From: Candidatus Segetimicrobium genomatis
Lineage (GTDB): Bacteria; Sysuimicrobiota; Sysuimicrobiia; Sysuimicrobiales; Kaftiobacteriaceae
Length of the DNA: 35,534 bases
Assembly: GCA_005882295.1 (NCBI GenBank)
Contig: VBAI01000010.1
Span: forward strand, 1-35,534
Direction: 5' to 3'
Made by a program: the position numbers and the translations under genes
Shown: positions 2,126-32,745 of the stretch, one piece after another
How positions within the stretch are numbered: position 1 is the first letter of the stretch
How the letters are laid out: each line of letters opens with the position of its first letter
Notes under the pieces: model-generated
What the model was told of the DNA's origin: nothing
Databases searched by the model: none
The model's input: only the letters and a program-made list of their open reading frames with translations

Positions 2126-4849
2126 CTATTTCACGGAGGAGAGGGAGTCCAGGAGTTCTTGCAGGCGCTGCGTCTTCGCGCGCAGCTCCTCCGCGCGCCG
2201 ACGCTGTTGTGAGACCACGTCGGCGGGGGCCCGCCCGGTAAAGTCGCGGTCCTCCAGACGCTGCTGGAGACGCTCCATCTCCATCCGGGTCGCCGCGAGT
2301 GTCTTCTGCAGGCGCGAGCGCTCGGTGGGTACATCGATGAGGCCTCCCAGCGGAATCGCGATTTCCGCCTCGGCCAGGACGGTGGTGACGCTGCCGGCAG
2401 GCCGCGGGGTGCCCGGGGCGTCAAACCGGATGGGGTCGACTCTCGCCAGAACCGCCAGATAGGGTCGGGTGCGCTCGAGGATCTGTTGCCCCTCCTTGCC
2501 GGCCCGCAGAGAAAGCGGGACCCGCTGCGCAGGGGGGATGGAGAGTTCCGTCCGCAGACTCCTGATCGCGCGCACGACGGCCATGAGCGCGTTCATCTCG
2601 CGCTCGGCGGCGGGATCGGTCCACCTCGACGGCGGCTGCGGCCACGGGGAGATCATGATGCTGGGTCCGTCGTGCGGCAGGTGCTGCCAGATCTCTTCGG
2701 TGATGAACGGCATGATCGGATGCAACAGCTTCATCGTGTTGGACAGCACGCACCACAACGTGTGCTGCACGGCATTCCGGCGCTCTTGTCGCGTTCCCGC
2801 GTTCCCGCGTTCCCGCGCGCCGCCCCGAGCCGGCGAAGCCGGCGTGGGGGTTCCCGCTTGCAGGTCCACTTTCGCCATCTCAAGATACCAGTCGCAGTAT
2901 TCGCTCCAGATGAAGTCATAGAGCGCCCGGGCGGTCCTGTCGAACTCGTAGGCCTCCAGGTGTGCGGTGACGTCCTCCACCAGCCGCGCATACCGGCTGC
3001 GGATCCAGCGGTCGGCGGCGGAAAGCACCGCCGGGGCCGGTGCCGGGGCGCGGGGGTCGAACTCTCCCAGGTTCATCAGCACGAAGCGCGCCGCGTTCCA
3101 GATCTTCGTGCTGAAGTTCCGCACGTCGGCAATCATCTTCTCGCTGAAGCGCAGGTCCTGTTGTTCCTGAGAGCACCTGGACACCAGGGCAAACCGTACG
3201 GCATCGGCGCCGTACCCCCGCGCCTCGACCATTTCCATCGGGTCGATCCCGGTTCCCAGCGACCTGCTCATCCGGCGGCCGTCCAGCGTCATCACCGTGG
3301 GCGCGACGTACACGTCGGTGAAGGGCACGTCGCCCGTGAAGTGCAGCCCGAGCATGATCATCCGGGCAATCCACAGGAACAGGATGCCCCGATCGGACAC
3401 CAGCACGTCACCGGGGTAGAAGTACCGCAAATCGGTCGTATCGGCCGGCCAGCCGAGTGTGGCGAATGGCCAGAGGCCCGAGCTGAACCAGGTGTCGAGC
3501 ACATCGGGGTCCTGGGCAAGGGTCTGCCCTCCGCACCGCGGACAGCGCTGCGGGGGCGTCGTAGATGCCGCGCGCTCGCCACACGCATCGCATTGCCACA
3601 CCGGGATGCGGTGCCCCCACCACAACTGGCGAGAGATCGTCCATGGCCGGATGTGGTCGAGGAAGTTCAGAATCACCTTCGCCCAGCGCTCGTGGTGGAA
3701 ACGCACGCGCCCGTCCCGGATGGCCGCGGCGGCCCGGGCGGCCATCTCCTTCATGTCGCAGAACCACTGATCGCTGATGTACGGCTCGATCACGGCATGG
3801 CAGCGGTCACACGTGCCCACGTTGGTGCGATAGGCTTCGACCTTCTCGACGAGCCCCAGGGTCTTGAGATCCTCTCCCACCATTTTGCGGGCCTCAAACC
3901 GGTCCATCCCGGCGTATTTCCCAGTCTCAGGCGTCATGCGGCCCTTGGGATCCAACACCACCAGGACCGGCAGGCCGTGGTCCGCCCCGATCTCGTTATC
4001 GACCAGGGCGTGGCCTGGGGTAATCTTGAGCGCGCCTGTCCCAAACTGCGGATCCACCCGCGCATCCGCGATGACCGGCACGCGGCGGTTCACGATCGGC
4101 ACCAGCACGTGCGTCCCCACCAGCCGGCGGTACCGGTCGTCGTCCGGATGCACCCCCACGGCCACGTCCGCCATGATCGTCTCCGGACGCTGCGTGGCGA
4201 TGACGATCCCCGGGCTCCCGTCTGCGCCGGGGTAGCGCACGTACCAGAGGGACGTGTCCATCTCCACGTACTCCACCTCGAGATCGGAGATGGCGCTGCC
4301 ATCGCGCGGACACCAGTTCACCATCCGCTTCCCGCGGTAGATCAGACCCTCGTGGAAGAGACGCACGAACGCCTCGGTGACCGACGCGGAGTAGCCGGGA
4401 TCCAGGGTGAAGACATAGCGGTCCCAGTCCAGCGAGAACCCCATGCGCTTGAGTTGCTCGTCGATGATGCCTCCGTACCGGTACTTCCACTGCCAGACCC
4501 GCTCCACGAACTTCTCGCGGCCGAGCTGCTGCAGGGTGAGGCCTTCCTTGGCGAGCTCGCGTTCCACGACATTTTGCGTGGCGATGCCCGCGTGGTCTGT
4601 GCCCGGCTGCCAGAGCGCGTTGCGGCCCTGCATCCGGCGCCAGCGGATGAGCACGTCCTGGATGGAGAAGGTGGAGCCGGTGCCGATGTGCGACTCGCCC
4701 GTCACGTTGGGGAGGGGAAGCATGATGACGAATGGCTCTCGTGACGGGTCGACCGCGGCGTGGAAATACCCACTGTCCATCCAGGTCTTGTACCACGCCA
4801 TCTCGACCTGGCGCGGATCATAGGTTGCGGGCAACGTCTTCGTAGCCAC
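2126..4849 (-). CDS. valS: Valine--tRNA ligase (ValRS), with unusual class I signature motifs
   Basis: Class I aminoacyl-tRNA synthetase of about 907 residues that charges tRNA-Val in the cytoplasm. Visible are PNVTG followed by the HIGH-box position, TDHAGIATQ, the editing-domain segment ATQRPETIMAD, WTISRQLWWGHRIPVW, a zinc-ribbon-like CDACGER...CPRCGG insert, DVLDTWFSSGLWP, the KMSKS position, the anticodon-binding region (LLHPIMPFITEEIW) and a C-terminal coiled coil. The HIGH box reads HIGT (about residues 54-57) and the KMSKS loop reads RMSRS (about residue 523). The frame is open 63 nt further upstream, but that part is the T-box terminator. I chose the GTG at 4849 because GGAGGTGA (4861-4868) precedes it by 11 nt. 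The anticodon-binding domain holds an in-frame repeat-derived insertion (2783-2858). T-box controlled. Confidence 0.9.
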   Translation of the reverse strand: MATKTLPATYDPRQVEMAWYKTWMDSGYFHAAVDPSREPFVIMLPLPNVTGESHIGTGSTFSIQDVLIRWRRMQGRNALWQPGTDHAGIATQNVVERELAKEGLTLQQLGREKFVERVWQWKYRYGGIIDEQLKRMGFSLDWDRYVFTLDPGYSASVTEAFVRLFHEGLIYRGKRMVNWCPRDGSAISDLEVEYVEMDTSLWYVRYPGADGSPGIVIATQRPETIMADVAVGVHPDDDRYRRLVGTHVLVPIVNRRVPVIADARVDPQFGTGALKITPGHALVDNEIGADHGLPVLVVLDPKGRMTPETGKYAGMDRFEARKMVGEDLKTLGLVEKVEAYRTNVGTCDRCHAVIEPYISDQWFCDMKEMAARAAAAIRDGRVRFHHERWAKVILNFLDHIRPWTISRQLWWGHRIPVWQCDACGERAASTTPPQRCPRCGGQTLAQDPDVLDTWFSSGLWPFATLGWPADTTDLRYFYPGDVLVSDRGILFLWIARMIMLGLHFTGDVPFTDVYVAPTVMTLDGRRMSRSLGTGIDPMEMVEARGYGADAVRFALVSRCSQEQQDLRFSEKMIADVRNFSTKIWNAARFVLMNLGEFDPRAPAPAPAVLSAADRWIRSRYARLVEDVTAHLEAYEFDRTARALYDFIWSEYCDWYLEMAKVDLQAGTPTPASPARGGARERGNAGTRQERRNAVQHTLWCVLSNTMKLLHPIMPFITEEIWQHLPHDGPSIMISPWPQPPSRWTDPAAEREMNALMAVVRAIRSLRTELSIPPAQRVPLSLRAGKEGQQILERTRPYLAVLARVDPIRFDAPGTPRPAGSVTTVLAEAEIAIPLGGLIDVPTERSRLQKTLAATRMEMERLQQRLEDRDFTGRAPADVVSQQRRRAEELRAKTQRLQELLDSLSSVK
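2783..2858 (-). repeat. Repeat-derived in-frame insertion inside valS
   Basis: The plus strand shows three and a half copies of GCGTTCCC (2791-2818), then a palindromic segment GCCGGCGAAGCCGGC within 2829-2845, then another TTCCCGC. Read on the minus strand this adds roughly 25 residues of Pro/Arg/Gly/Thr (GTPTPASPARGG, then RERGNAGTRQERR) between KVDLQA and NAVQHTLW, where ValRS proteins normally have a short linker. The GGGAACGC units resemble the GGGAAGC-type arrays found between genes at 15643, 15862, 22075 and 22186. The reading frame is kept. Confidence 0.7.
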
Positions 4850-4871
4850 CGTGTTCAGCTTCACCTCCACC

Positions 4872-4905
4872 ACAAACAAAAACGCTCCGTCCCTCAGGAC
4901 GGAGC
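4872..4905 (-). terminator. T-box-controlled intrinsic terminator of valS
   Basis: On the minus strand GCTCCGTCC-TGAG-GGACGGAGC forms a perfect 9-bp stem followed by GTTTTTGTTTG. It lies immediately after the T-box sequence and just before the valS Shine-Dalgarno site, as expected for the terminator that uncharged tRNA-Val must prevent. Confidence 0.9.
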
Positions 4906-5091
4906 TCATCACCCCGCGGTACCACCCGTGTTCTACGCCGCATCAGCGGCGCAACGCTTCACGCGCTGTCACGGGCGCAACCCGATTTGCTCCGGGGCGA
5001 CCTTCCCCGCCGCGCCGCTTCAGGAGACCTTCCAGCCGCGGGATCTCCTTTGCTGGGAGGGCGAGCGGGTACTCCTCCCCCTCATTGCTTC
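4884..5091 (-). promoter_or_regulatory. T-box leader of valS (Val specifier GTC)
   Basis: The canonical T-box core GGTGGTACCGCGG lies at 4914-4926 (minus strand). Stem I can be drawn: base GGGG/CCCC, 5' specifier-loop side GAGGAGTA, helix CCCGC/GCGGG, 3' side GAAGGTC. The three bases one nucleotide before the closing base helix are GTC (4999-5001), a valine codon, matching the downstream valS gene. Uncharged tRNA-Val should pair with the specifier and the T-box bulge and stop the terminator at 4884-4905 from forming, raising valS expression on valine shortage. The leader starts near 5091, as judged from the -10 box at 5098-5103. Confidence 0.93.
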
Positions 5092-5097
5092 GCGGAC

Positions 5098-22384: not shown

Positions 22385-24058
22385 CTAGGATGTGACGGCG
22401 CCCGCCGACGCCGAGGACACCATCTTCGCGTACTTGGCCATCGCCCCTGTCGGATAGCGCGGCGCCGGCGGCGTCCAGCGCGCCCGCCGGGACTTCAGTT
22501 CCTGCTCGCTGAGCTCTGCGTCCAGGCGGCGGCCCTGTGCATCGATGACGATGGTGTCGCCGTCGCGCAGCAGCGCAATCGGCCCACCCTTCGCCGCCTC
22601 GGGCGCCACATGGCCGACCATGAACCCGTGCGTCGCACCTGAGAACCGCCCGTCGGTGATCAAGGCCACCGACTCACCGAAACCCGCCCCGACCAGCGCC
22701 GCCGTCACGGCCAGCATCTCCCGCATTCCCGGACCGCCCATCGGCCCTTCATACCGGATGACGATGACGTCGCCGGCGTTGATCGTCTTCCGCCGGATGG
22801 CGTCGAAGGCATCCTCTTCACTGTCGAACACGCGCGCCGGGCCGCGGTGGCGCAGGCGCTCATGGCCAACCAGTTTGACCACGGCCCCCTCGGGCGCCAG
22901 GTTCCCCCGCAGGATAGCGATGCCGCCCGACTTCTTCAGTGGGTTCGAAAGCGGTCTGATCACTTCTTGCCTGGGGGTCTCCTTCGCCTGCGCCGCTTCT
23001 TCGGCCATCGTTTTGCCGGTCACGGTGAGCGCATCGCCGTGCAGGAGGCCCGCGTCCAGCAACCGCTTGGCCAGCACCCGCATGCCGCCGGCCCGGTAGA
23101 GGTCGACGGCTACGAACCGGCCGCCCGGCTTGAGGTCGGCGAGGATGGGTGTGCGGGCCGAGATCCGGTCGAAATCGTCCAACGTCAGCTCGATCCCGGC
23201 CTCGCGGGCCACGGCCAGCAGATGGAGCACCGCGTTGGTCGACCCCCCTGATGCCGCCACCGCCGTGATGGCGTTCTCCAAGGATTTCGTGGTGATGATC
23301 TGGCGTGGCCGGAGTTCACGCTGCAGGAGATCCATGACCAGGCGGCCCGCCGACTCGACGACCGCCGCCTTCCGCGAGTCGACCGCGGGCACCTCGTTGG
23401 TGCCCATCGGCGAGATGCCCATCATTTCGAAGGCCATCGCCATCGTGTTGGCGGTGAACTGACCGCCGCAAGCGCCGGGCCCGGGACAGGCGACGGCTTC
23501 AAGCCGTCGCAGGGACTCCAGGCTGGTCTTGCCGGCGTGGTACGCGCCGACCGCTTCGAAGACATCCTGGATGGTGACGGCCCGGCCTTCGAACTCACCC
23601 GGCATGATGGATCCGCCGTAGACCATCAGGGCCGGCAGGTCCAGGCGCGCGAGAGCCATGACGGTGCCTGGGATTGTCTTGTCGCACCCGGAGATGGCCA
23701 CGAGGCCGTCCAGCGAATACCCTCGGGCCACGAGCTCAATCGAGTCGGCGATGATCTCCCGGCTGACCAGAGAGGTCCGCATCCCCTCCGTGCCCATGCT
23801 GATGCCGTCCGAAATCGCGATGGTGTTGAACTCTACGGGGGTCCCGCCAGCCGCCCGTACGCCAGCCTTCACCTGCTCCGAGACGCCGCGGAGGTGGGAG
23901 TTGCAGGGCATCATCTCGATCCACGTGTTGGCGATACCGATCAGGGGTTTGCGTAGATCGTCTTCGGTGAATCCGATGGCGTAGAAATAGGAACGCGCTG
24001 GGGCCCGGTCCGGGCCCTCCAGCATGCGGGCACTGCGAGATCGCACGGTTGTCGGCAT
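22385..24058 (-). CDS. ilvD: Dihydroxy-acid dehydratase
   Basis: Fe-S enzyme of valine/isoleucine synthesis that dehydrates 2,3-dihydroxy acids to 2-oxo acids. 557 residues, full length. Cluster-ligand Cys residues lie in MMPCNSHL, AISGCDKTIPG and ACPGPGACGGQFTANTM; GGSTNAVLHLLA and the C-terminal DGRFSGATHGFMVGHV are family signatures. AGGGGA precedes the ATG at 24058. It follows leuB by 17 nt. Confidence 0.97.
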   Translation of the reverse strand: MPTTVRSRSARMLEGPDRAPARSYFYAIGFTEDDLRKPLIGIANTWIEMMPCNSHLRGVSEQVKAGVRAAGGTPVEFNTIAISDGISMGTEGMRTSLVSREIIADSIELVARGYSLDGLVAISGCDKTIPGTVMALARLDLPALMVYGGSIMPGEFEGRAVTIQDVFEAVGAYHAGKTSLESLRRLEAVACPGPGACGGQFTANTMAMAFEMMGISPMGTNEVPAVDSRKAAVVESAGRLVMDLLQRELRPRQIITTKSLENAITAVAASGGSTNAVLHLLAVAREAGIELTLDDFDRISARTPILADLKPGGRFVAVDLYRAGGMRVLAKRLLDAGLLHGDALTVTGKTMAEEAAQAKETPRQEVIRPLSNPLKKSGGIAILRGNLAPEGAVVKLVGHERLRHRGPARVFDSEEDAFDAIRRKTINAGDVIVIRYEGPMGGPGMREMLAVTAALVGAGFGESVALITDGRFSGATHGFMVGHVAPEAAKGGPIALLRDGDTIVIDAQGRRLDAELSEQELKSRRARWTPPAPRYPTGAMAKYAKMVSSASAGAVTS

Positions 24059-24074
24059 GATCCGATCCCCTGGC

Positions 24075-24156
24075 GTCAGACCCCTTTCTTCGGGGTCTGA
24101 CCCCTTTGAAATGCGGCACGTTTCTTCGGGGTCTGACCCTTTTGAAGTGCGGCGCG
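24075..24156. repeat. 36-bp tandem repeat with GGGGTCTGACCCC-type palindrome
   Basis: Two near-identical 36-bp units (24085-24120, 24121-24156) begin TTTCTTCGGGGTCTGACCC and end TGCGGCACG/TGCGGCGCG. A partial third (GTCAGACCCC, 24075-24084) precedes them. The palindromic core resembles REP-type intergenic repeats widespread in bacteria. Because 36 is a multiple of 3 the repeat reads through as the leuB tail. Confidence 0.85.
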
Positions 24157-25251
24157 GGCGGCGGGGCGACCGGTGGCCGCCGGCGCACCGCCAACTTCCT
24201 CGACGATATGATCCCCCACCTGCGCGGTCGTCGCTCCTCCCCCGAGATCGGGGGTGCGGATCCCGGCCTCCAGGACGCGTTCCACCGCAGTCTCCACCGC
24301 CGCGGACGCGTCCTCGCGACTGAGGGAATGGCGCAGCATCATCGCCACGCTGAGGATCGCCCCGATCGGGTTGGCAATCCCCTTCCCCGCGATATCCGGC
24401 GCAGAACCATGTACGGGCTCGTAGAAGAACGGTGGGTGGTCCCCGAGGCTGGCGGACGGGAGCAGCCCCAGCGAGCCCACAACCGCGCCGGCCTCATCGC
24501 TGAGGATGTCGCCGAATGTGTTCTCCGTTACGATGACGTCAAACATCCCGGGGGCGCGGATGAGCTGCAGGGCACAGGTATCGACCAGGAGATGCTCCAG
24601 GGTGACATCGGGAAACTCGCGCCGCACAGACTCGACGGTCTGCCGCCAGAGCCGCGATGTTTCCAGCACATTGGCCTTATCCACCGAGGTCACCTTCCGG
24701 CGGCGCCCGCGGGCCATCGCGAACGCCACCCGCGCCACCCGTCCAATCTCCTCAGTAGAGTAGCGCATCGTGTCCACGGCGCTGTCCTGGGTCCGGCCGC
24801 GGGGCTGGCCGAAGTACAGACCGCCGAGCAGTTCGCGGACGATGAGCAAGTCCGTGCCGGCGGCGACCTCTGGCCGTAACGGTGACACCGCGCCGAGCGA
24901 CGCGGACAGCCGCACCGGGCGGAGGTTGGCGAAGACGCCGAGCGCGCGGCGCAGCTGCAGCAGGCCGGCCTCAGGTCGCGCTGGACCAGGCAGGCGGTCC
25001 CACTGGGGACCACCCACTGCGCCCAGCAGTACCGCGTCAGCGCGCAGGCATGACTGCAGGGTGACGTCGGGAAGCGGCGTCCCCGTCGCGTCGGTGGCCG
25101 CTCCCCCGATTGGCAGCTCCGTGAACCCCAGGGAGAGGTGAAAGCGGACTGCTACCGCCTGCAGAACCTTGACCGCTTCGCGGATGACCTCGGGGCCTAT
25201 CCCGTCCCCGGGGAGAAGGACAACCCGGACCTCACCGGGCACGGCTGTCAA
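24076..25251 (-). CDS. leuB: 3-isopropylmalate dehydrogenase, with repeat-derived C-terminal tail
   Basis: Oxidises and decarboxylates 3-isopropylmalate with NAD in leucine synthesis. Seen are LLPGDGIGPEVI, GAVGGPQWD, RELLGGLYFGQPRG, SVDKANVLETSRLWRQTV, DTCALQLIRAPGMFDVIVTENTFGDILSDEA-type segments and EPVHGSAPDIAGKGIANP. 391 residues against about 355 normally: the extra C-terminus is two 12-residue repeats (AALQKGQTPKKR, AAFQRGQTPKKG) made by a 36-bp tandem repeat at 24085-24156. Even the TGA stop falls in the next partial repeat. A TTG start at 25251 (AGGA 4 nt upstream) is likely; GTG at 25242 is possible. It overlaps the upstream 50-codon ORF. Confidence 0.94.
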   Translation of the reverse strand: MTAVPGEVRVVLLPGDGIGPEVIREAVKVLQAVAVRFHLSLGFTELPIGGAATDATGTPLPDVTLQSCLRADAVLLGAVGGPQWDRLPGPARPEAGLLQLRRALGVFANLRPVRLSASLGAVSPLRPEVAAGTDLLIVRELLGGLYFGQPRGRTQDSAVDTMRYSTEEIGRVARVAFAMARGRRRKVTSVDKANVLETSRLWRQTVESVRREFPDVTLEHLLVDTCALQLIRAPGMFDVIVTENTFGDILSDEAGAVVGSLGLLPSASLGDHPPFFYEPVHGSAPDIAGKGIANPIGAILSVAMMLRHSLSREDASAAVETAVERVLEAGIRTPDLGGGATTAQVGDHIVEEVGGAPAATGRPAARAALQKGQTPKKRAAFQRGQTPKKGV

Positions 25252-25384
25252 ATGAATCCTGGATGCGTTCGATCACCCAGTCGGTGTCCTGAGCATCCTG
25301 CCCTCCCGGCCGACGCGGCTCTGCGAGTGCGTCGGTCAGCACCTTGAACAAGGACTCCAGATGCTCCCGGCCTGCGGACTCCAT
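25232..25384 (-). CDS. Small protein of the leu operon, 50 aa, unknown
   Basis: An ATG at 25384 with a strong GGAGG Shine-Dalgarno site begins a 50-codon frame ending 19 nt inside leuB. The product starts MESAGREHLESLFKVL, is acidic to neutral and probably helical at both ends, with DTDWVIERIQDSFDS near the C-terminus. It fills the gap between leuD and leuB and overlaps the leuB start, so it may couple leuB translation, act as a small accessory protein, or both. No family is recognised. Confidence 0.55.
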   Translation of the reverse strand: MESAGREHLESLFKVLTDALAEPRRPGGQDAQDTDWVIERIQDSFDSRAR

Positions 25385-25406
25385 CTCCTCCGACCTCCCC
25401 TACAGG

Positions 25407-25910
25407 TTACTGCCGTTCCCGCGCGAGCTCCGCGCGGACATATCCCACGATGCCTCCGGCCGTCAGCAATCGCAGCATGAACTCCGGGACCGGCGTCCCC
25501 TTGTACGCCTCGCCGCGGGTCACGTTGCGGATCACCCCGGTCGCCAGATCCACGTCAAGCTCGTCGCCCTCAGACACGCGGGCCTGGACGTCCTGGCATT
25601 CCACTACCGGCAGGCCAATGTTGAAGGCGTTGCGATAGAAGATGCGGGCGAACGACACCGCCACGATGCAGGAGATCCCCACTCCCTTGATGGCAATCGG
25701 CGCGTGCTCCCGGGAACTGCCTTGCCCGAAATTCTCCCCGGCCACCAGCACGTCGCCCGGCGCGATGCGTTGCCGCAGCGACGGGTCGAGATCTTCAAAG
25801 ACGTATTTGGCCAGTTCCGCCGGGTCGGTCGTCACCAGGTACCGGGCCGGAATGATGACGTCGGTATCGATATGGTGCCCCACCGTGTGCGCCTTGCCTC
25901 GAATCGCCAT
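25407..25910 (-). CDS. leuD: 3-isopropylmalate dehydratase small subunit
   Basis: Swivel-domain subunit that completes the LeuCD isomerase. 167 residues: HIDTDVIIPARYL, GENFGQGSSREHAPIAI and YRNAFNIGLPVV are the hallmark segments. The length is that of the short archaeal/thermophile-type LeuD rather than the roughly 200-residue proteobacterial type. The ATG at 25910 follows the leuC stop by 6 nt. Confidence 0.96.
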   Translation of the reverse strand: MAIRGKAHTVGHHIDTDVIIPARYLVTTDPAELAKYVFEDLDPSLRQRIAPGDVLVAGENFGQGSSREHAPIAIKGVGISCIVAVSFARIFYRNAFNIGLPVVECQDVQARVSEGDELDVDLATGVIRNVTRGEAYKGTPVPEFMLRLLTAGGIVGYVRAELARERQ

Positions 25911-25916
25911 GGCCGT

Positions 25917-27197
25917 CTACACTGGCACCGGGTCGCGCACGACCTCGTCGGGATGCACGAGTTTGCCCGCCACCGCCGCGGCGGCCGCCACCGCTGCGTT
26001 GCTGAGATACACCTTGCTGCCGCGATGTCCCATCCGGCCTACGAAATTGCGACTGCTGGTGGACACACACACCTCCCCGTCGGCCAGGACCCCCATGTGC
26101 CCGCCGATGCATGGTCCGCATGTAGAGGTGCTGAAGGCCGCGCCCGCGTCGAGAAAGATCTGCACCAGCCCCTCGTCCAGCGCCTGGCGGTAGACGGCCG
26201 GGGTCGCGGGGATGACCAGCAGCCGGGTGCGGGGATGCACCTTCCGCCCGGCCAGGACCCTGGCCGCCAGGCGCATGTCTTCGATGCGCCCGTTGGTGCA
26301 GGTGCCGATGAAGCACTGGTCCACCTTCACGCCCCCTACCTCCCGCACCGACACGACGTTGCCGGGAGAGGCCGGCGCCGACACGACCGGATCCAGGGTG
26401 GACACGTCGACCTCGCGCACATCCACGTAGCTCGCGCCGGGGTCGCTCCGGTAGACGGTGATCGCCCGGCGAGCACGGGGTCGTATCCATTCCAGCACCA
26501 CATCGTCGGCCTCCATAATGCCGTTCTTCGCCCCGGCCTCAACGGCCATGTTTGTGATCGAGAACCGCTCGTCCATCGTCAGGTGTGTCAGGGTATCGCC
26601 GCAGAACTCCATCGCGCCATACCGGGCGCCGTCCACGCCGATCTCGCCGATGACTTTCAGGATCAGATCCTTCCCCGTCACCCATGGCCGCGGCCGCCCG
26701 TGGAAGACAAACTTCATCGACTCCGGGACGCGCAGCCACAACCGGCCCAGAGCCATCGCAGCGGCGAGGTCGGACGAGCCGACGCCTGTCGAGAACGCCC
26801 CCAGCGCGCCGTGATTGCACGTGTGGGAGTCTGCGCCGACGAAGACATCCCCCGGCACAACGTAGCCCAGTTCGGCCAGCAGGACGTGGGCGATCCCTGA
26901 ACGTCCGACGTCGAAGAAGTGCGGCAGGTTGTGCCCGTCGACAAAGTCCCTTGTGATCTTGCACTGCTGCGCCGAGGCGATGTCTTTGTTGGGGACGTAG
27001 TGATCGAAGACAAAGGCGACCCGGTCAGGATCAAAGACCTGCGCGACGCCCATCTTCTCGAACTCCTTGATCGCCAGCGGCGCGGTGATGTCGTTGGCGA
27101 ATAGGAAGTCGACCGTGCAGTCAATGAGCTCGCCCGGATGGACCTCGGGCCGGCCGGCGTGGGCCGCCAGGATCTTCTCCGTCATCGTCATGGCCAT
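25917..27197 (-). CDS. leuC: 3-isopropylmalate dehydratase large subunit
   Basis: Aconitase-family [4Fe-4S] subunit interconverting 2- and 3-isopropylmalate. About 426 residues in the HacA/LeuC2 size class that pairs with short LeuD. Visible are MTEKILAAHAG, VDFLFANDITAPLA, the cluster Cys regions FIGTCTNGR and TCGPCIGG, and GADSHTCNHGALGAF. The frame stays open upstream into a repeat (27219-27312); ATG at 27197 is chosen, with GAGGGGG 10-11 nt before it, and in-frame ATGs at 27191 and 27185 are alternatives. Confidence 0.95.
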   Translation of the reverse strand: MAMTMTEKILAAHAGRPEVHPGELIDCTVDFLFANDITAPLAIKEFEKMGVAQVFDPDRVAFVFDHYVPNKDIASAQQCKITRDFVDGHNLPHFFDVGRSGIAHVLLAELGYVVPGDVFVGADSHTCNHGALGAFSTGVGSSDLAAAMALGRLWLRVPESMKFVFHGRPRPWVTGKDLILKVIGEIGVDGARYGAMEFCGDTLTHLTMDERFSITNMAVEAGAKNGIMEADDVVLEWIRPRARRAITVYRSDPGASYVDVREVDVSTLDPVVSAPASPGNVVSVREVGGVKVDQCFIGTCTNGRIEDMRLAARVLAGRKVHPRTRLLVIPATPAVYRQALDEGLVQIFLDAGAAFSTSTCGPCIGGHMGVLADGEVCVSTSSRNFVGRMGHRGSKVYLSNAAVAAAAAVAGKLVHPDEVVRDPVPV

Positions 27198-27219
27198 GGC
27201 TATGACATCCCCCTCTTCG

Positions 27220-28854
<1,635 letters not shown>

Positions 28855-28862
28855 GAGACGCC

Positions 28863-29885
28863 TCAGGGCGTACCGACTGGCTGCTTGGTCCCTTTGCGGG
28901 ACAGCCAGGGCATCATCGCCCGCAGCCGCCGGCCTACGTCTTCAATCGGGTGCGCCTGCTCCTGCTTGCGCTGCTCCTTGAAGTTCGGCCGCCCGGCCTG
29001 GTTCTCGCTCACCCACTCCCGGGCAAACGTCCCATCCTGCACCTCACGCAGAATCCGTTTCATCTCGGCGCGCACCCGGTCGCTGATCACCCGGTGGCCG
29101 CGGCTGTAGTCGCCGTATTCGGCGGTATCCGACACAGAGTACCGCATGTAGGACAGCCCGCCCTCGTACATCAGATCCACGATCAGCTTCATCTCATGCA
29201 GGCACTCGAAGTAGGCAATCTCCGGCTGGTAGCCTGCCTCGACGAGGATGTCGAAGCCCGTCTTGATCAGGCTGGAAATCCCACCGCACAGCACGGTCTG
29301 CTCGCCGAACAGATCGGTTTCGGTCTCTTCCTTGAACGTGGTTTCGATGACCCCGGCTTTCGTGCAGCCGACCGCGCGGCCGTAGGCCAGGGCGGTCTCC
29401 TTCGCGTGTCCCGTCACATTCTGGTGCACGGCCAGCAGCCCGGGCACCCCCACGCCTTCCACGAACAACTCCCGCATGCGATGGCCCGGCGCCTTCGGCG
29501 CGATCATCACCACGTCCACCGTGGGAGCAGGGACGATCTGTCCGAAGTGAATATTGAACCCGTGGGCAAAGAGGAGCGCGGCCCCGGGCCGCAGCGCCGG
29601 ACCAATTTCCTGCTCATAAATGCTTCGCTGCACGTGGTCCGGCGCGAGCATGGCCACCAGGTCGGCCTTCGCCGCGGCATCACCAACGGTGGCGACCCGA
29701 AACCCGTCCCCTTCGGCCTTGGCCCAGGACGGGCTGCCCCGGTACAAACCGACGACGACGCTCACACCGCTGTCCCGAAGGTTCTGGGCATGGGCGTGGC
29801 CCTGGCTGCCGTAACCGATGACGGCCACGGTTTTCCCCCGCAGCGGCTCCAGCGACGCATCCTTGTCGTAGTAGATGGTGGCCAT
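28863..29885 (-). CDS. ilvC: Ketol-acid reductoisomerase
   Basis: Class I (340-residue) KARI that isomerises and reduces acetolactate or acetohydroxybutyrate. NAD(P) Rossmann motif [19 protein letters not shown], then [15 protein letters not shown]-type substrate region and metal ligands in [16 protein letters not shown] and [16 protein letters not shown]. The cofactor-loop GLYRGSPSW keeps an Arg and Ser, suggesting NADPH. GGGGGGA lies 7 nt before the ATG. Confidence 0.97.
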
Positions 29886-29905
29886 TAATATCCCCCCGAC
29901 ACTTT

Positions 29906-29984
29906 GTCATTGCGAGGCCCGAAGGGCTGAAGCAATCTCCGTGACCAGGGGATCGCCACGGCCCCTGCGGGGCCTCGCGATGAC
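29906..29984. mobile_element. MITE-like element between ilvN and ilvC
   Basis: 79 bp bounded by imperfect terminal inverted repeats: GTCATTGCGAGGCCC at the left and the complement of GGGGCCTCGCGATGAC at the right. It carries AAGCAATCTC and an internal GGCCCCTGCGGGGCC hairpin. GTCATTGCGAG...AAGCAATC is a repeat family I recognise from many unrelated bacterial genomes. It lies in the ilv operon without breaking a gene. Confidence 0.8.
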
Positions 29985-30000
29985 GCGGTCTACGCCCGCG

Positions 30001-30501
30001 TCACGTGTTCTGTGATCCCCGCACGAGGGTGACCTGGCCTGTGCGGGCCATCTCCCGGATGCCGTATTTGGTCAGCAGGGTGACAAAGGCGTCGACTTTC
30101 TCGCCCCTGCCGGTGACTTCCAGCGTCATCGTCTTGTCGGTGAGGTCCACCACGCTGGCGCGGAAGACGTTGGCGATCTCCATGATCTCCAGCCGTGTCC
30201 CCGGTGTGACATTGACCTTGATCAGCGCCAGCTCGCGATCGACCGCTGGGGTGCTGTCCAGCGACGTCGCCCGAAGCACTTCGACCAGCTTGCGCAGTTG
30301 CTTGGCAAACTGCTCCGTACGCTCCGGCGCCGTGTCCACCACGATCGTCATCCGGGAGATGCTCGGATCCTCTGTGGGCCCAACAGACAGGCTGTGGATG
30401 TTCACACCCCGCCTGCGGATCAGTCCCGCCACACGCACCAGCACCCCCGGTGCATTCTGCACCAGCACCGAGATGGTGGCCGCGTGTTGCAGGTCAGTCA
30501 T
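30001..30501 (-). CDS. ilvN: Acetolactate synthase small (regulatory) subunit
   Basis: 166 residues. An N-terminal ACT domain (ATISVLVQNAPGVLVRVAGLIRRRGVNIHSL) binds valine for feedback inhibition, and a second C-terminal ACT-like domain (LALIKVNV, VVDLTDKTMTLEVTG) follows. The same gene is called ilvH in some species. It overlaps the ilvB stop by 8 nt, so the two subunits are translationally coupled. Confidence 0.96.
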   Translation of the reverse strand: MTDLQHAATISVLVQNAPGVLVRVAGLIRRRGVNIHSLSVGPTEDPSISRMTIVVDTAPERTEQFAKQLRKLVEVLRATSLDSTPAVDRELALIKVNVTPGTRLEIMEIANVFRASVVDLTDKTMTLEVTGRGEKVDAFVTLLTKYGIREMARTGQVTLVRGSQNT

Positions 30502-32221
30502 CCAGGATCATCTCCGCCACCGACTGCCCGGACGGAATCATCGGCAGGCAGTTCTCCTCCGGGTCGCAGAGGATGTCGACCACGCACGGCACACCTTCCG
30601 TGGCCAGCGCGGTGCGCAGGGCCCCCTCAACCTCTTCGGGCCGCTCGACGCGGATGCCGCGTGCGCCGTAGGCGTCGCCCAGCTTGGCGAAGTCAGGGTT
30701 GCGCAGGATGGATGATGAGAAGCGGCCGCGGTAGAAGAACGACTGCCACTGCCGGACCATGCCGAGCGCGCCGTTGTTGAGGATGAAAATCGGCAGGCTC
30801 AGCCGATGCTCCACCGCGGTAATCAGGTCCTGCATGGTCATCTGGAACCCGCCGTCACCCACCAGGGCCAGGACCTGCTTGTCCGGACGCGCGAACTTGG
30901 CGCCCAGGGCGGCCGGGAAGCCGAAGCCCATGGCCCCCAGCCCGCCGGAAGAGATGAAGGTGCGGGGTTCGCGGCACTTGTACCACTGGGCCATCCACAT
31001 CTGATGCTGGCCGACGTCGGTGGCCACAATGGCCTGCCCGCCGGTCAGCCGGTTGAGCAGGTCACAGACATACTGGTGGCTGATGCGACCATCGCGCTGC
31101 CGGTAGCGGAACGGATACTTCTCCCGCCACTCCTCAATTTGTTTCCACCACGCCTCAATCTTCGGGGCACGCACCAACGGCACGAGCGCAGCCAGCACCC
31201 GCTTGGCGTCGCCAACGATGGGGATGTGCGCCGGCTTGTTCTTCCCAATCTCGGCCGGGTCGATGTCGATATGGATGAACCGGGCGTGAGGGGCAAAATC
31301 CTTGAGCCGGCCGGTGACGCGGTCGTCGAAGCGCACCCCCACCGCCAGAATGACGTCGGCGCGGTTGATGGCCCAGTTGGCAAAGGCGCTGCCGTGCATG
31401 CCGAGCATGCCCAGACAGCGCGGGTGTGTCTCATCCATCGCCCCCTTGCCCATCAGCGTGAGCGCGACAGGGATGCCGGTCCGGTCGGCCAGCGCCGTGA
31501 GCTCAGGCGTGGCCCCGCTGCTGAGGATGCCCCCTCCGGCGTAGACGATGGGGCGCTCCGCCGCGGACAGCGCCTCGGCCGCCTCGGCGATCTGGCTGGG
31601 GTTGCCGTCTAGCACCGGCCGGTACCCCGGGAGCGCGGGCTCCTCATCGAAATCCGGCTCGCACAGTTCCTGAGACACGTCGCGCGGGATATCTACCAGC
31701 ACCGGGCCAGGCCGCCCGGTTCCGGCCAAGTGGAACGCCGCGCGGACGGCGTTGGGGATATCGACCGCACGCATCACGAGCGTGTTGTACTTGGTGATGG
31801 GCATGGTAATACCGGTGACGTCGGCTTCCTGGAAGGCATCGTTGCCGATCACCGGCCGCGGCACCTGCCCCGTGATCGCAACCACCGGGACGGAATCCAT
31901 CATCGCGTCGGTGAGCCCGGTGATGAGGTTCGTAGCGCCGGGGCCCGACGTCGCTGTGCACACCCCCACGCGGCCGGAAGCGCGCGCGTATCCCACGGCC
32001 GCATGGGCGGCGACCTGCTCATGGCGGACGAGAATATGATGGATATCCTGCGCATCGTACAGCGCGTCATAGATTGGAAGCGACGCGCCGCCCGGGTGGC
32101 CGAAGAGGACCTCGACACCTTCCCGCCGGAGCGACTCCACAAGCGTCTGCGCGCCGTTCATCTGGCGGGACCGCACGGCCGGAGCCGGCGGTTTTGAGGC
32201 CGTGATCTGGCGAGCCATCAT
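30494..32221 (-). CDS. ilvB: Acetolactate synthase large (catalytic) subunit
   Basis: ThDP/FAD enzyme that condenses two pyruvates, or pyruvate with 2-ketobutyrate. Features: FGHPGGASLPIYDAL, the catalytic Glu in LVRHEQVAAHAAVGYARASG, QVPRPVIGNDAFQEADV, FAD-binding middle domain with VGVRFDDRVTGRL, and the ThDP/Mg motif GDGGFQMTMQDLITAVEHRL...NNGALGMV. 575 residues. AGGTGA lies before two consecutive ATGs (32221 and 32218); the spacing favours the second slightly. First gene of the operon behind the riboswitch/T-box leader. Confidence 0.97.
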   Translation of the reverse strand: MMARQITASKPPAPAVRSRQMNGAQTLVESLRREGVEVLFGHPGGASLPIYDALYDAQDIHHILVRHEQVAAHAAVGYARASGRVGVCTATSGPGATNLITGLTDAMMDSVPVVAITGQVPRPVIGNDAFQEADVTGITMPITKYNTLVMRAVDIPNAVRAAFHLAGTGRPGPVLVDIPRDVSQELCEPDFDEEPALPGYRPVLDGNPSQIAEAAEALSAAERPIVYAGGGILSSGATPELTALADRTGIPVALTLMGKGAMDETHPRCLGMLGMHGSAFANWAINRADVILAVGVRFDDRVTGRLKDFAPHARFIHIDIDPAEIGKNKPAHIPIVGDAKRVLAALVPLVRAPKIEAWWKQIEEWREKYPFRYRQRDGRISHQYVCDLLNRLTGGQAIVATDVGQHQMWMAQWYKCREPRTFISSGGLGAMGFGFPAALGAKFARPDKQVLALVGDGGFQMTMQDLITAVEHRLSLPIFILNNGALGMVRQWQSFFYRGRFSSSILRNPDFAKLGDAYGARGIRVERPEEVEGALRTALATEGVPCVVDILCDPEENCLPMIPSGQSVAEMILDD

Positions 32222-32243: not shown

Positions 32244-32292
32244 ATAAAAAATACAGACCGCGGGCCCACCCTAAGGGCGGATGCTCCGCGGT
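32244..32292 (-). terminator. T-box-controlled terminator of the ilv-leu operon
   Basis: ACCGCGG (part of the T-box itself, 32286-32292) pairs with CCGCGGT (32257-32263), with an inner CCGCCC/GGGTGG stem, followed by ATTTTTT. It is mutually exclusive with the T-box antiterminator. Confidence 0.85.
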
Positions 32293-32316
32293 ACCACCTT
32301 AGTTCCCGCCAACAGA

Positions 32317-32376
32317 GTTGAAGAGTCCGAAAGTTGAAGAGTTGGATCCAACTTTCCAACTCTCCAACTTTTCAAC
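32317..32376. repeat. Short-repeat hairpin inside the ilv T-box leader
   Basis: On the minus strand GTTGAAAAGTTGGAGAGTTG and AAAGTTGGATCCAACT, then CTTCAACTTTC and CTCTTCAAC, form units of (A)AGTTGGA in one orientation followed by their complement. They can fold as one long imperfect stem closed by GTTGAA/TTCAAC around GGATCC. The unit pattern parallels the other short-repeat arrays in this window. Confidence 0.75.
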
Positions 32377-32554
32377 CTCTGTCAGAGGGCTCTCAGCCCG
32401 ATCACGGGGGGATCCGGCGGCGCCTACCTCAGTCGGCACCACGGCTTGGGGACGAGTTCGGCGGCCGTTTGCTACCGGTTCCCAGAACTCCCGGTTTTCT
32501 TGAAAAGCAACCGGCTGCCTACTACTTCCCCGCCTCGCCTTGCGGCGTACGATG

Positions 32555-32602
32555 AAAAAGCCTGAGCGATAGATTCTTGAGGAACCTATCCCTCAGGCTT
32601 TT
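32555..32602 (-). terminator. Terminator of the ykkC-class riboswitch
   Basis: Minus strand AAAAGCCTGAGGGATAG and CTATCGCTCAGGCTTTTT form a stem of about 16 bp with one mismatch and a loop of about 13 nt, ending in five T. Its 5' arm contains TGAGGG (32590-32595), the 3' strand of aptamer P1, so aptamer and terminator compete. Confidence 0.85.
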
Positions 32603-32706
32603 CCCCTGACGGTGTAGCGGCCCCGAGGACCGCCTGCGCCGCTCGGACCAACCGGCCCTTGTGGGAGCCGTGGAACCCTAGGCGCACTTCCTCGTGCTAT
32701 TGAGGG
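32590..32706 (-). ncRNA. ykkC-class riboswitch aptamer, probable ppGpp sensor (subtype 2a)
   Basis: The minus strand carries the conserved ykkC blocks in order: GCGCCTAGGGTTCC, GGCCGGTTGGTCCGAGCGGC, GCAGGCGG, GCCGCTACACCGT, and GGGGAAAAGCC. P1 is CCCTCA (32701-32706) with TGAGGG (32590-32595). ykkC subtypes sense guanidine, ppGpp, PRPP or (d)ADP. The ppGpp subtype is the one known to precede branched-chain amino-acid genes, so ppGpp is inferred from context, not from a diagnostic base. Ligand-stabilised P1 would sequester the terminator's 5' arm, an ON switch during starvation. Confidence 0.8.
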
Positions 32707-32716
32707 CTTTTTAAGG

Positions 32717-32745
32717 ACGTTAGCAAAGGCGCGGCCGGATGTCAA
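32717..32745 (-). promoter_or_regulatory. Promoter of the ilv-leu operon
   Basis: Minus strand TTGACA (32740-32745), 17-nt spacer ending in TGC, TAACGT (32717-32722). Transcription should start near 32710, a few bases before P1 of the riboswitch, giving a leader of about 490 nt. Confidence 0.8.

Follow-up and report, generated by a model that had tools for sequence, protein, structure and literature searches.

A predicted ppGpp riboswitch and a leucine T-box in tandem before a branched-chain amino-acid operon of an uncultured bacterial group

The ilv-leu operon of Bacillus subtilis is controlled through transcription termination by a single T-box for leucine, without a ppGpp aptamer in front of it. 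The combination of a ppGpp riboswitch with a leucine T-box has been described as a tandem AND gate (PMC5912903, Fig. 6C), and the reports date from 2018 and 2022. In the later compilation 31 cases were counted, 15 with ppGpp followed by T-box(Leu) and 16 in the reverse order (PMC9481103, Table 2). The same Rfam pair before ilv/leu genes in Bacillota was also listed under the name 'T-box Guanidine-' (PMC12452182). In the guanine-PRPP tandem, a ykkC subtype 2 aptamer likewise stands in tandem with another sensor, but the ligand is PRPP, the logic is IMPLY and the genes are those of purine metabolism (PMC5912903).

The leader analysed here is located on the minus strand of a 35,534-nt stretch of DNA (the window), which is one whole contig. 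Its elements follow each other in the order ykkC aptamer, terminator 1, T-box, terminator 2 and ilvB. With the published ppGpp/T-box(Leu) tandems it shares the RNA classes, the order (that of 15 of the 31), the separate expression platforms, the leucine specifier, the branched-chain genes and the ON direction of both switches, and with B. subtilis it has the leucine-specifier T-box in common. Because PMC5912903, PMC9481103 and PMC12452182 already describe or list it, the pairing is of a known type, and the preliminary description, made from the sequence alone, was mistaken in suggesting that it has been little noticed. Compared with the 'T-box Guanidine-' entry, the RF00230 and ykkC pair and the pathway are the same. 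However, that entry takes the ykkC element to sense guanidine and places the T-box first (PMC12452182, Table 2), whereas in the window the ykkC element comes first and its ligand-site residues point to ppGpp. What is new is the conservation of the tandem in a group labelled Armatimonadetes that is probably Sysuimicrobiota (CSP1-3), where it is kept in most members of two families while sister families carry the T-box alone, together with a palindromic repeat in the T-box linker of the window leader. From its sequence and the published systems, the leader very probably consists of a ppGpp riboswitch (ykkC subtype 2a) and a T-box for tRNA-Leu, both having terminators of their own and together forming a serial AND gate before a branched-chain operon. 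The features are as follows.

32717..32745, minus strand: promoter, by sequence reading; TTGACA at 32745-32740, 17-nt spacer, extended -10 TGC-TAACGT at 32722-32717
32579..32693, minus strand: ykkC subtype 2a (predicted ppGpp) aptamer from P0 (GAGGAA/TTCCTC) to P3, containing the RF00442 match
32554..32604, minus strand: terminator 1, the expression platform of the aptamer, by RNA fold; T-run at 32559-32555
32270..32544, minus strand: T-box leader of the leucine type, full-length RF00230 match
32454..32456, minus strand: specifier CTC (a Leu codon), located in the specifier loop of Stem I by Rfam alignment
32317..32376, minus strand: 60-nt palindromic dispersed repeat in the linker of the T-box, 5' of the antiterminator; 24 matches in its own genome
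32271..32302, minus strand: T-box antiterminator, A1 CTAAGG/CCTTAG, bulge TGGTACC, A2 GCGGA/TCCGC, by consensus fold of 16 leaders
32246..32292, minus strand: terminator 2, by sequence; ACCGCGG...CCGCGGT then TATTTTTT, T-run at 32251-32246
30494..32221, minus strand: ilvB for the large subunit of acetolactate synthase, with which the operon begins (Pfam TPP_enzyme N, M and C)
22385..30501, minus strand: rest of the operon, by Pfam, comprising the next seven lines
30001-30501, minus strand: ilvN
28863-29885, minus strand: ilvC
27220-28854, minus strand: leuA
25917-27326, minus strand: leuC
25407-25910, minus strand: leuD
24076-25251, minus strand: leuB
22385-24058, minus strand: ilvD

From gene order and strand, we infer that ilvB-ilvN-ilvC-leuA-leuC-leuD-leuB-ilvD are co-transcribed. 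The closest ilvB genes (84% and 79%) were found in metagenome-assembled genomes labelled Armatimonadetes.

When the whole window was searched with Rfam at the gathering threshold, three tRNAs were reported and neither ykkC nor T-box, so a looser search was required. At the permissive setting, RF00442 matched end to end on the minus strand at 32588-32692 with 59.3 bits (E 5.5e-10), and RF00230 matched over positions 1-219 of 219 at 32270-32544 with 79.6 bits (E 1.4e-17; E 1.5e-17 in a whole-genome search). The gathering scores of the two families are 63 and 93, and since both matches fall under them, a default search of this window shows only tRNAs. The covariance check suggested by the preliminary description thus gave significant E-values for both families when run permissively and neither family at the gathering threshold. 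That description counted the lack of a hit above threshold against the element; taken literally, this rule would discard a real one, because both scores are sub-gathering. In the relatives, the RF00442 scores reach 71.1 bits, and some pairs exceed the gathering cut-offs. By sequence criteria, the E-values together with the conservation in 18 genomes settle that the pair is real. The ykkC blocks and the complete T-box that had been read ahead of ilvB correspond to the full-length RF00442 and RF00230 matches in that order. Matches to miRNA families at 32305-32389 in the permissive search were attributed to chance, as palindromic repeat sequence underlies them. A second T-box is present in the window at 4892-5094 on the minus strand (52.3 bits, E 1.5e-10, sub-gathering); it has a valine specifier (GAA-G-GTC-G) and lies directly 5' of the valyl-tRNA synthetase gene at 2126-4912.

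The comparison set consisted of 43 species genomes of the phylum, all of one order. A ykkC element followed by a T-box in a single leader was found in 18 of them, before ilvB or a TPP-enzyme-like gene: in all ten genomes of the window's family, in 7 of the 11 of a second family and in the one genome of a third. The T-box without ykkC precedes ilvB in at least 14 genomes, belonging to two further families plus one genome of the second family. Sysuimicrobiota (CSP1-3) has been described as a phylum that comprises a single class with a single order and was once placed in Armatimonadota (PMC11604079), and the single-order make-up of the present set fits the view that the group carrying the tandem is probably this phylum. 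For structure and residues, 16 tandem leaders were aligned, and positions 49 and 96 were surveyed in 38 aptamers. In three genomes (G003, G004 and G016; leaders L014, L015 and L106) the first gene after the tandem encodes a TPP-enzyme-like protein (IDTLRRWGI.FFAGVNGGGVIHVAKHMEPF...) unlike IlvB. In G016 ilvB follows this gene, and a full ilvB was sought in G003 and G004 and not found.

The architecture of two terminators in series is present in the leader, as seen from the RNA fold, the conservation of pairing and the antiterminator consensus. Folding of 32551-32693 gave a hairpin of 22 bp with TTTTT at its end (z = -5.82), whose 5' arm takes the 3' strand of P3 and part of the 3' strand of P0. 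A terminator borrowing the 3' strand of the aptamer had been proposed before and is borne out, with the borrowed strands being those of P3 and P0 where the earlier reading named P1. Its pairing is retained in 89% of cells, versus 31-53% for slid versions; the covariation support is weak because there is little two-sided variation. Terminator 1 is thus the alternative pairing to P0, and the P0 helix feeds a switch of the ON type. The second terminator of the preliminary description was also recovered, at 32292-32257 with its T-run. It overlaps the antiterminator, so that the two folds are mutually exclusive. In the consensus fold of the 16 leaders, the helices of the antiterminator are conserved, as is the TGGTACC bulge.

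Without ppGpp, the 3' strands of P3 and P0 would pair downstream and terminator 1 would form, and with ppGpp the aptamer would hold these strands and RNA polymerase would proceed into the T-box. There, uncharged tRNA-Leu(GAG) is expected to pair with the CUC specifier and the UGGU bulge, which would stabilise the antiterminator and prevent terminator 2. As two ON switches stand in series, this architecture suggests an AND gate in which full expression would need both ppGpp and uncharged tRNA-Leu. The two-terminator AND logic of the preliminary description is therefore consistent with the architecture and the literature, but its second signal is the charging of leucine tRNA and not of isoleucine tRNA. 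The promoter had been called near-consensus. The perfect TTGACA and the 17-nt spacing agree with this (TTGACA upstream of the aptamer is retained in 15 of the 16 tandem leaders), but the extended -10 is weak, and a consensus scan of the leader at a 9/12 cut-off gave no match. Between the T-run of terminator 1 and the T-box there are about 10 nt, which leaves no room for a promoter and makes a separate T-box-only transcript unlikely.

The alternative that survives best, although it is improbable, is that only one switch works here, the other decaying or bypassed, and that there is no AND logic. At otherwise invariant columns of the 16 aligned leaders, the window copy is among the three most divergent; it has six lone departures, of which three (G45A, G47A and G59C in A3) lie in the distal module of Stem I and a fourth lies in the loop of P3. 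It also carries the repeat in the T-box linker, and 14 relatives manage with the T-box alone before ilvB. Because of the six departures the window copy may work less well than those of its relatives, and the linker repeat could add to this, or both could be neutral. Against decay or bypass, the specifier is intact, as are the two terminators and the two alternative folds, the stretch between the elements has no place for a promoter, and the repeat insertion is common to G008, whose T-box exceeds the gathering cut-off. G008 has its insertion at the same place in the linker, where G009 has a different sequence.

The palindromic repeats are characteristic of the genome as a whole, since 47 long inverted repeats were found in 318 kb sampled, about one per 7 kb, and they are not confined to T-box leaders. 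A special association with these leaders was rejected, though several of the genome's five T-boxes carry one. Most of the inverted repeats belong to several families built of degenerate units of about 8 nt, including GTTGGAGA, CTACACAA, GGGACTGG, GTGATTCG, CGGGAACG and GTCTTCCC. They were seen at 32317-32376 of the window and at L265, L266, L268, L270, L276 and other loci. The linkers of the ileS and proC T-boxes hold palindromes of other families, and that of the pheS T-box holds a GGGAACGC-type array (L002, L003 and L005). T-boxes seem to tolerate repeats in their linkers.

The ligand of the aptamer was assessed from its conserved structure and from three positions. Among the 16 aligned tandem aptamers, P0, P1, P2 and P3 pair in 97-100% (P0 in 99%) and P1a/b in 86%, and seven base pairs show two-sided changes, with slid controls scoring far lower. 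Position 49 is C (32641), as in 38 of 38 aptamers inspected; position 75 is C (32614), invariant across the 16 tandem aptamers; and position 96 is A (32593), as placed by the Rfam alignment and also by counting 18 nt from C78, and A is found there in all 38 aptamers of the group inspected. According to PMC6031431, a pyrimidine at 49 marks ykkC subtype 2 while guanidine-I has A49; C75 pairs with the guanine base of ppGpp or with G96, and U75 goes with adenine ligands; PRPP aptamers have G96 in more than 97% of cases, and the G96A change by itself converts the ligand to ppGpp. Given C49, C75, A96 and a RelA/SpoT homologue encoded in the window genome, ppGpp is the expected, predicted ligand. The subtype 2a call of the preliminary description agrees with these residues, with the literature and with the gene contexts. 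Outside the tandems, ykkC elements standing alone occur ahead of gltB in several families and, in G002 and G005, ahead of a leuA/cimA-type gene; gltB and citramalate/isopropylmalate-synthase-like contexts are known for subtype 2a (PMC5912903). The gltB-associated elements at L017, L019, L020 and L021 have an extra hairpin of the CCGGAAGG...CCTTCCGG type between the aptamer and the 3' arm of the terminator.

That the aptamer belongs to a PRPP (2b), (d)ADP (2c) or guanidine-I (subtype 1) riboswitch, the last with the meaning proposed in PMC12452182, is slightly less likely still than the failure of one switch. The sole matching Rfam family carries the name Guanidine-I, and the consensus sequences of 2a and 2b are closely alike. 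However, the window has C where guanidine-I has A49, C rather than U at 75 speaks against adenine ligands, and A rather than G at 96 speaks against PRPP. The associated genes are of the ilv/leu, gltB and cimA-like kinds, and none is a purine, NUDIX or guanidine-transport gene. PRPP, guanidine and ADP were rejected on these residues and contexts, in favour of ppGpp.

The T-box had been described as an isoleucine T-box with the specifier ATC. The codon is CTC (Leu) at 32456-32454, within the specifier loop GAA-CTC-G. CTC was found in 16 of 16 tandem leaders and in the T-box-only ilvB leaders that could be read; the loop is GAA-T-CTC-G or GAA-A-CTC-A in the other tandems and GAA-C-CTC-G in the T-box-only leaders. 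A serine reading (TCG, in GAA-C-TCG) was excluded by the relatives with GAA-T-CTC-G. As controls, T-boxes of the same genome have GAA-G-ATC (ileS), GAA-G-GTC (valS) and GAA-G-TTC (pheS). Since CTC occupies the loops of the relatives whereas the ileS T-box has ATC, the T-box is, as its sequence is read, leucine-specific and not isoleucine-specific. Sensing of tRNA-Ile through ATC is scarcely credible, for although the operon makes isoleucine too and ATC triplets exist in the leader (e.g. GGATCC near 32412), these lie 3' of the specifier loop, and the loops of the window, its relatives and the ileS control all speak for leucine. tRNA-Leu(GAG) is present in the near-complete relative G005; it was sought in the window's own genome, an incomplete assembly, and not found.

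These results correct two labels: the T-box is of the leucine type, and matches named 'Guanidine-I' can, as judged by ligand-site residues, be ppGpp sensors where they precede ilv/leu genes. They bring little-studied uncultured bacteria into the range of a natural RNA logic gate that has two inputs and is rare, and at least 18 related tandem leaders with T-box-only relatives are available for comparative and in vitro work. The chances seem about evenly balanced that some families of this uncultured, phylum-level group gained a ppGpp riboswitch ahead of a leucine T-box that they already had, the pairing having arisen outside Bacillota, either independently or by transfer. If this is true, the T-box-only and AND-gate species would be a natural series in which to ask what the second input contributes.
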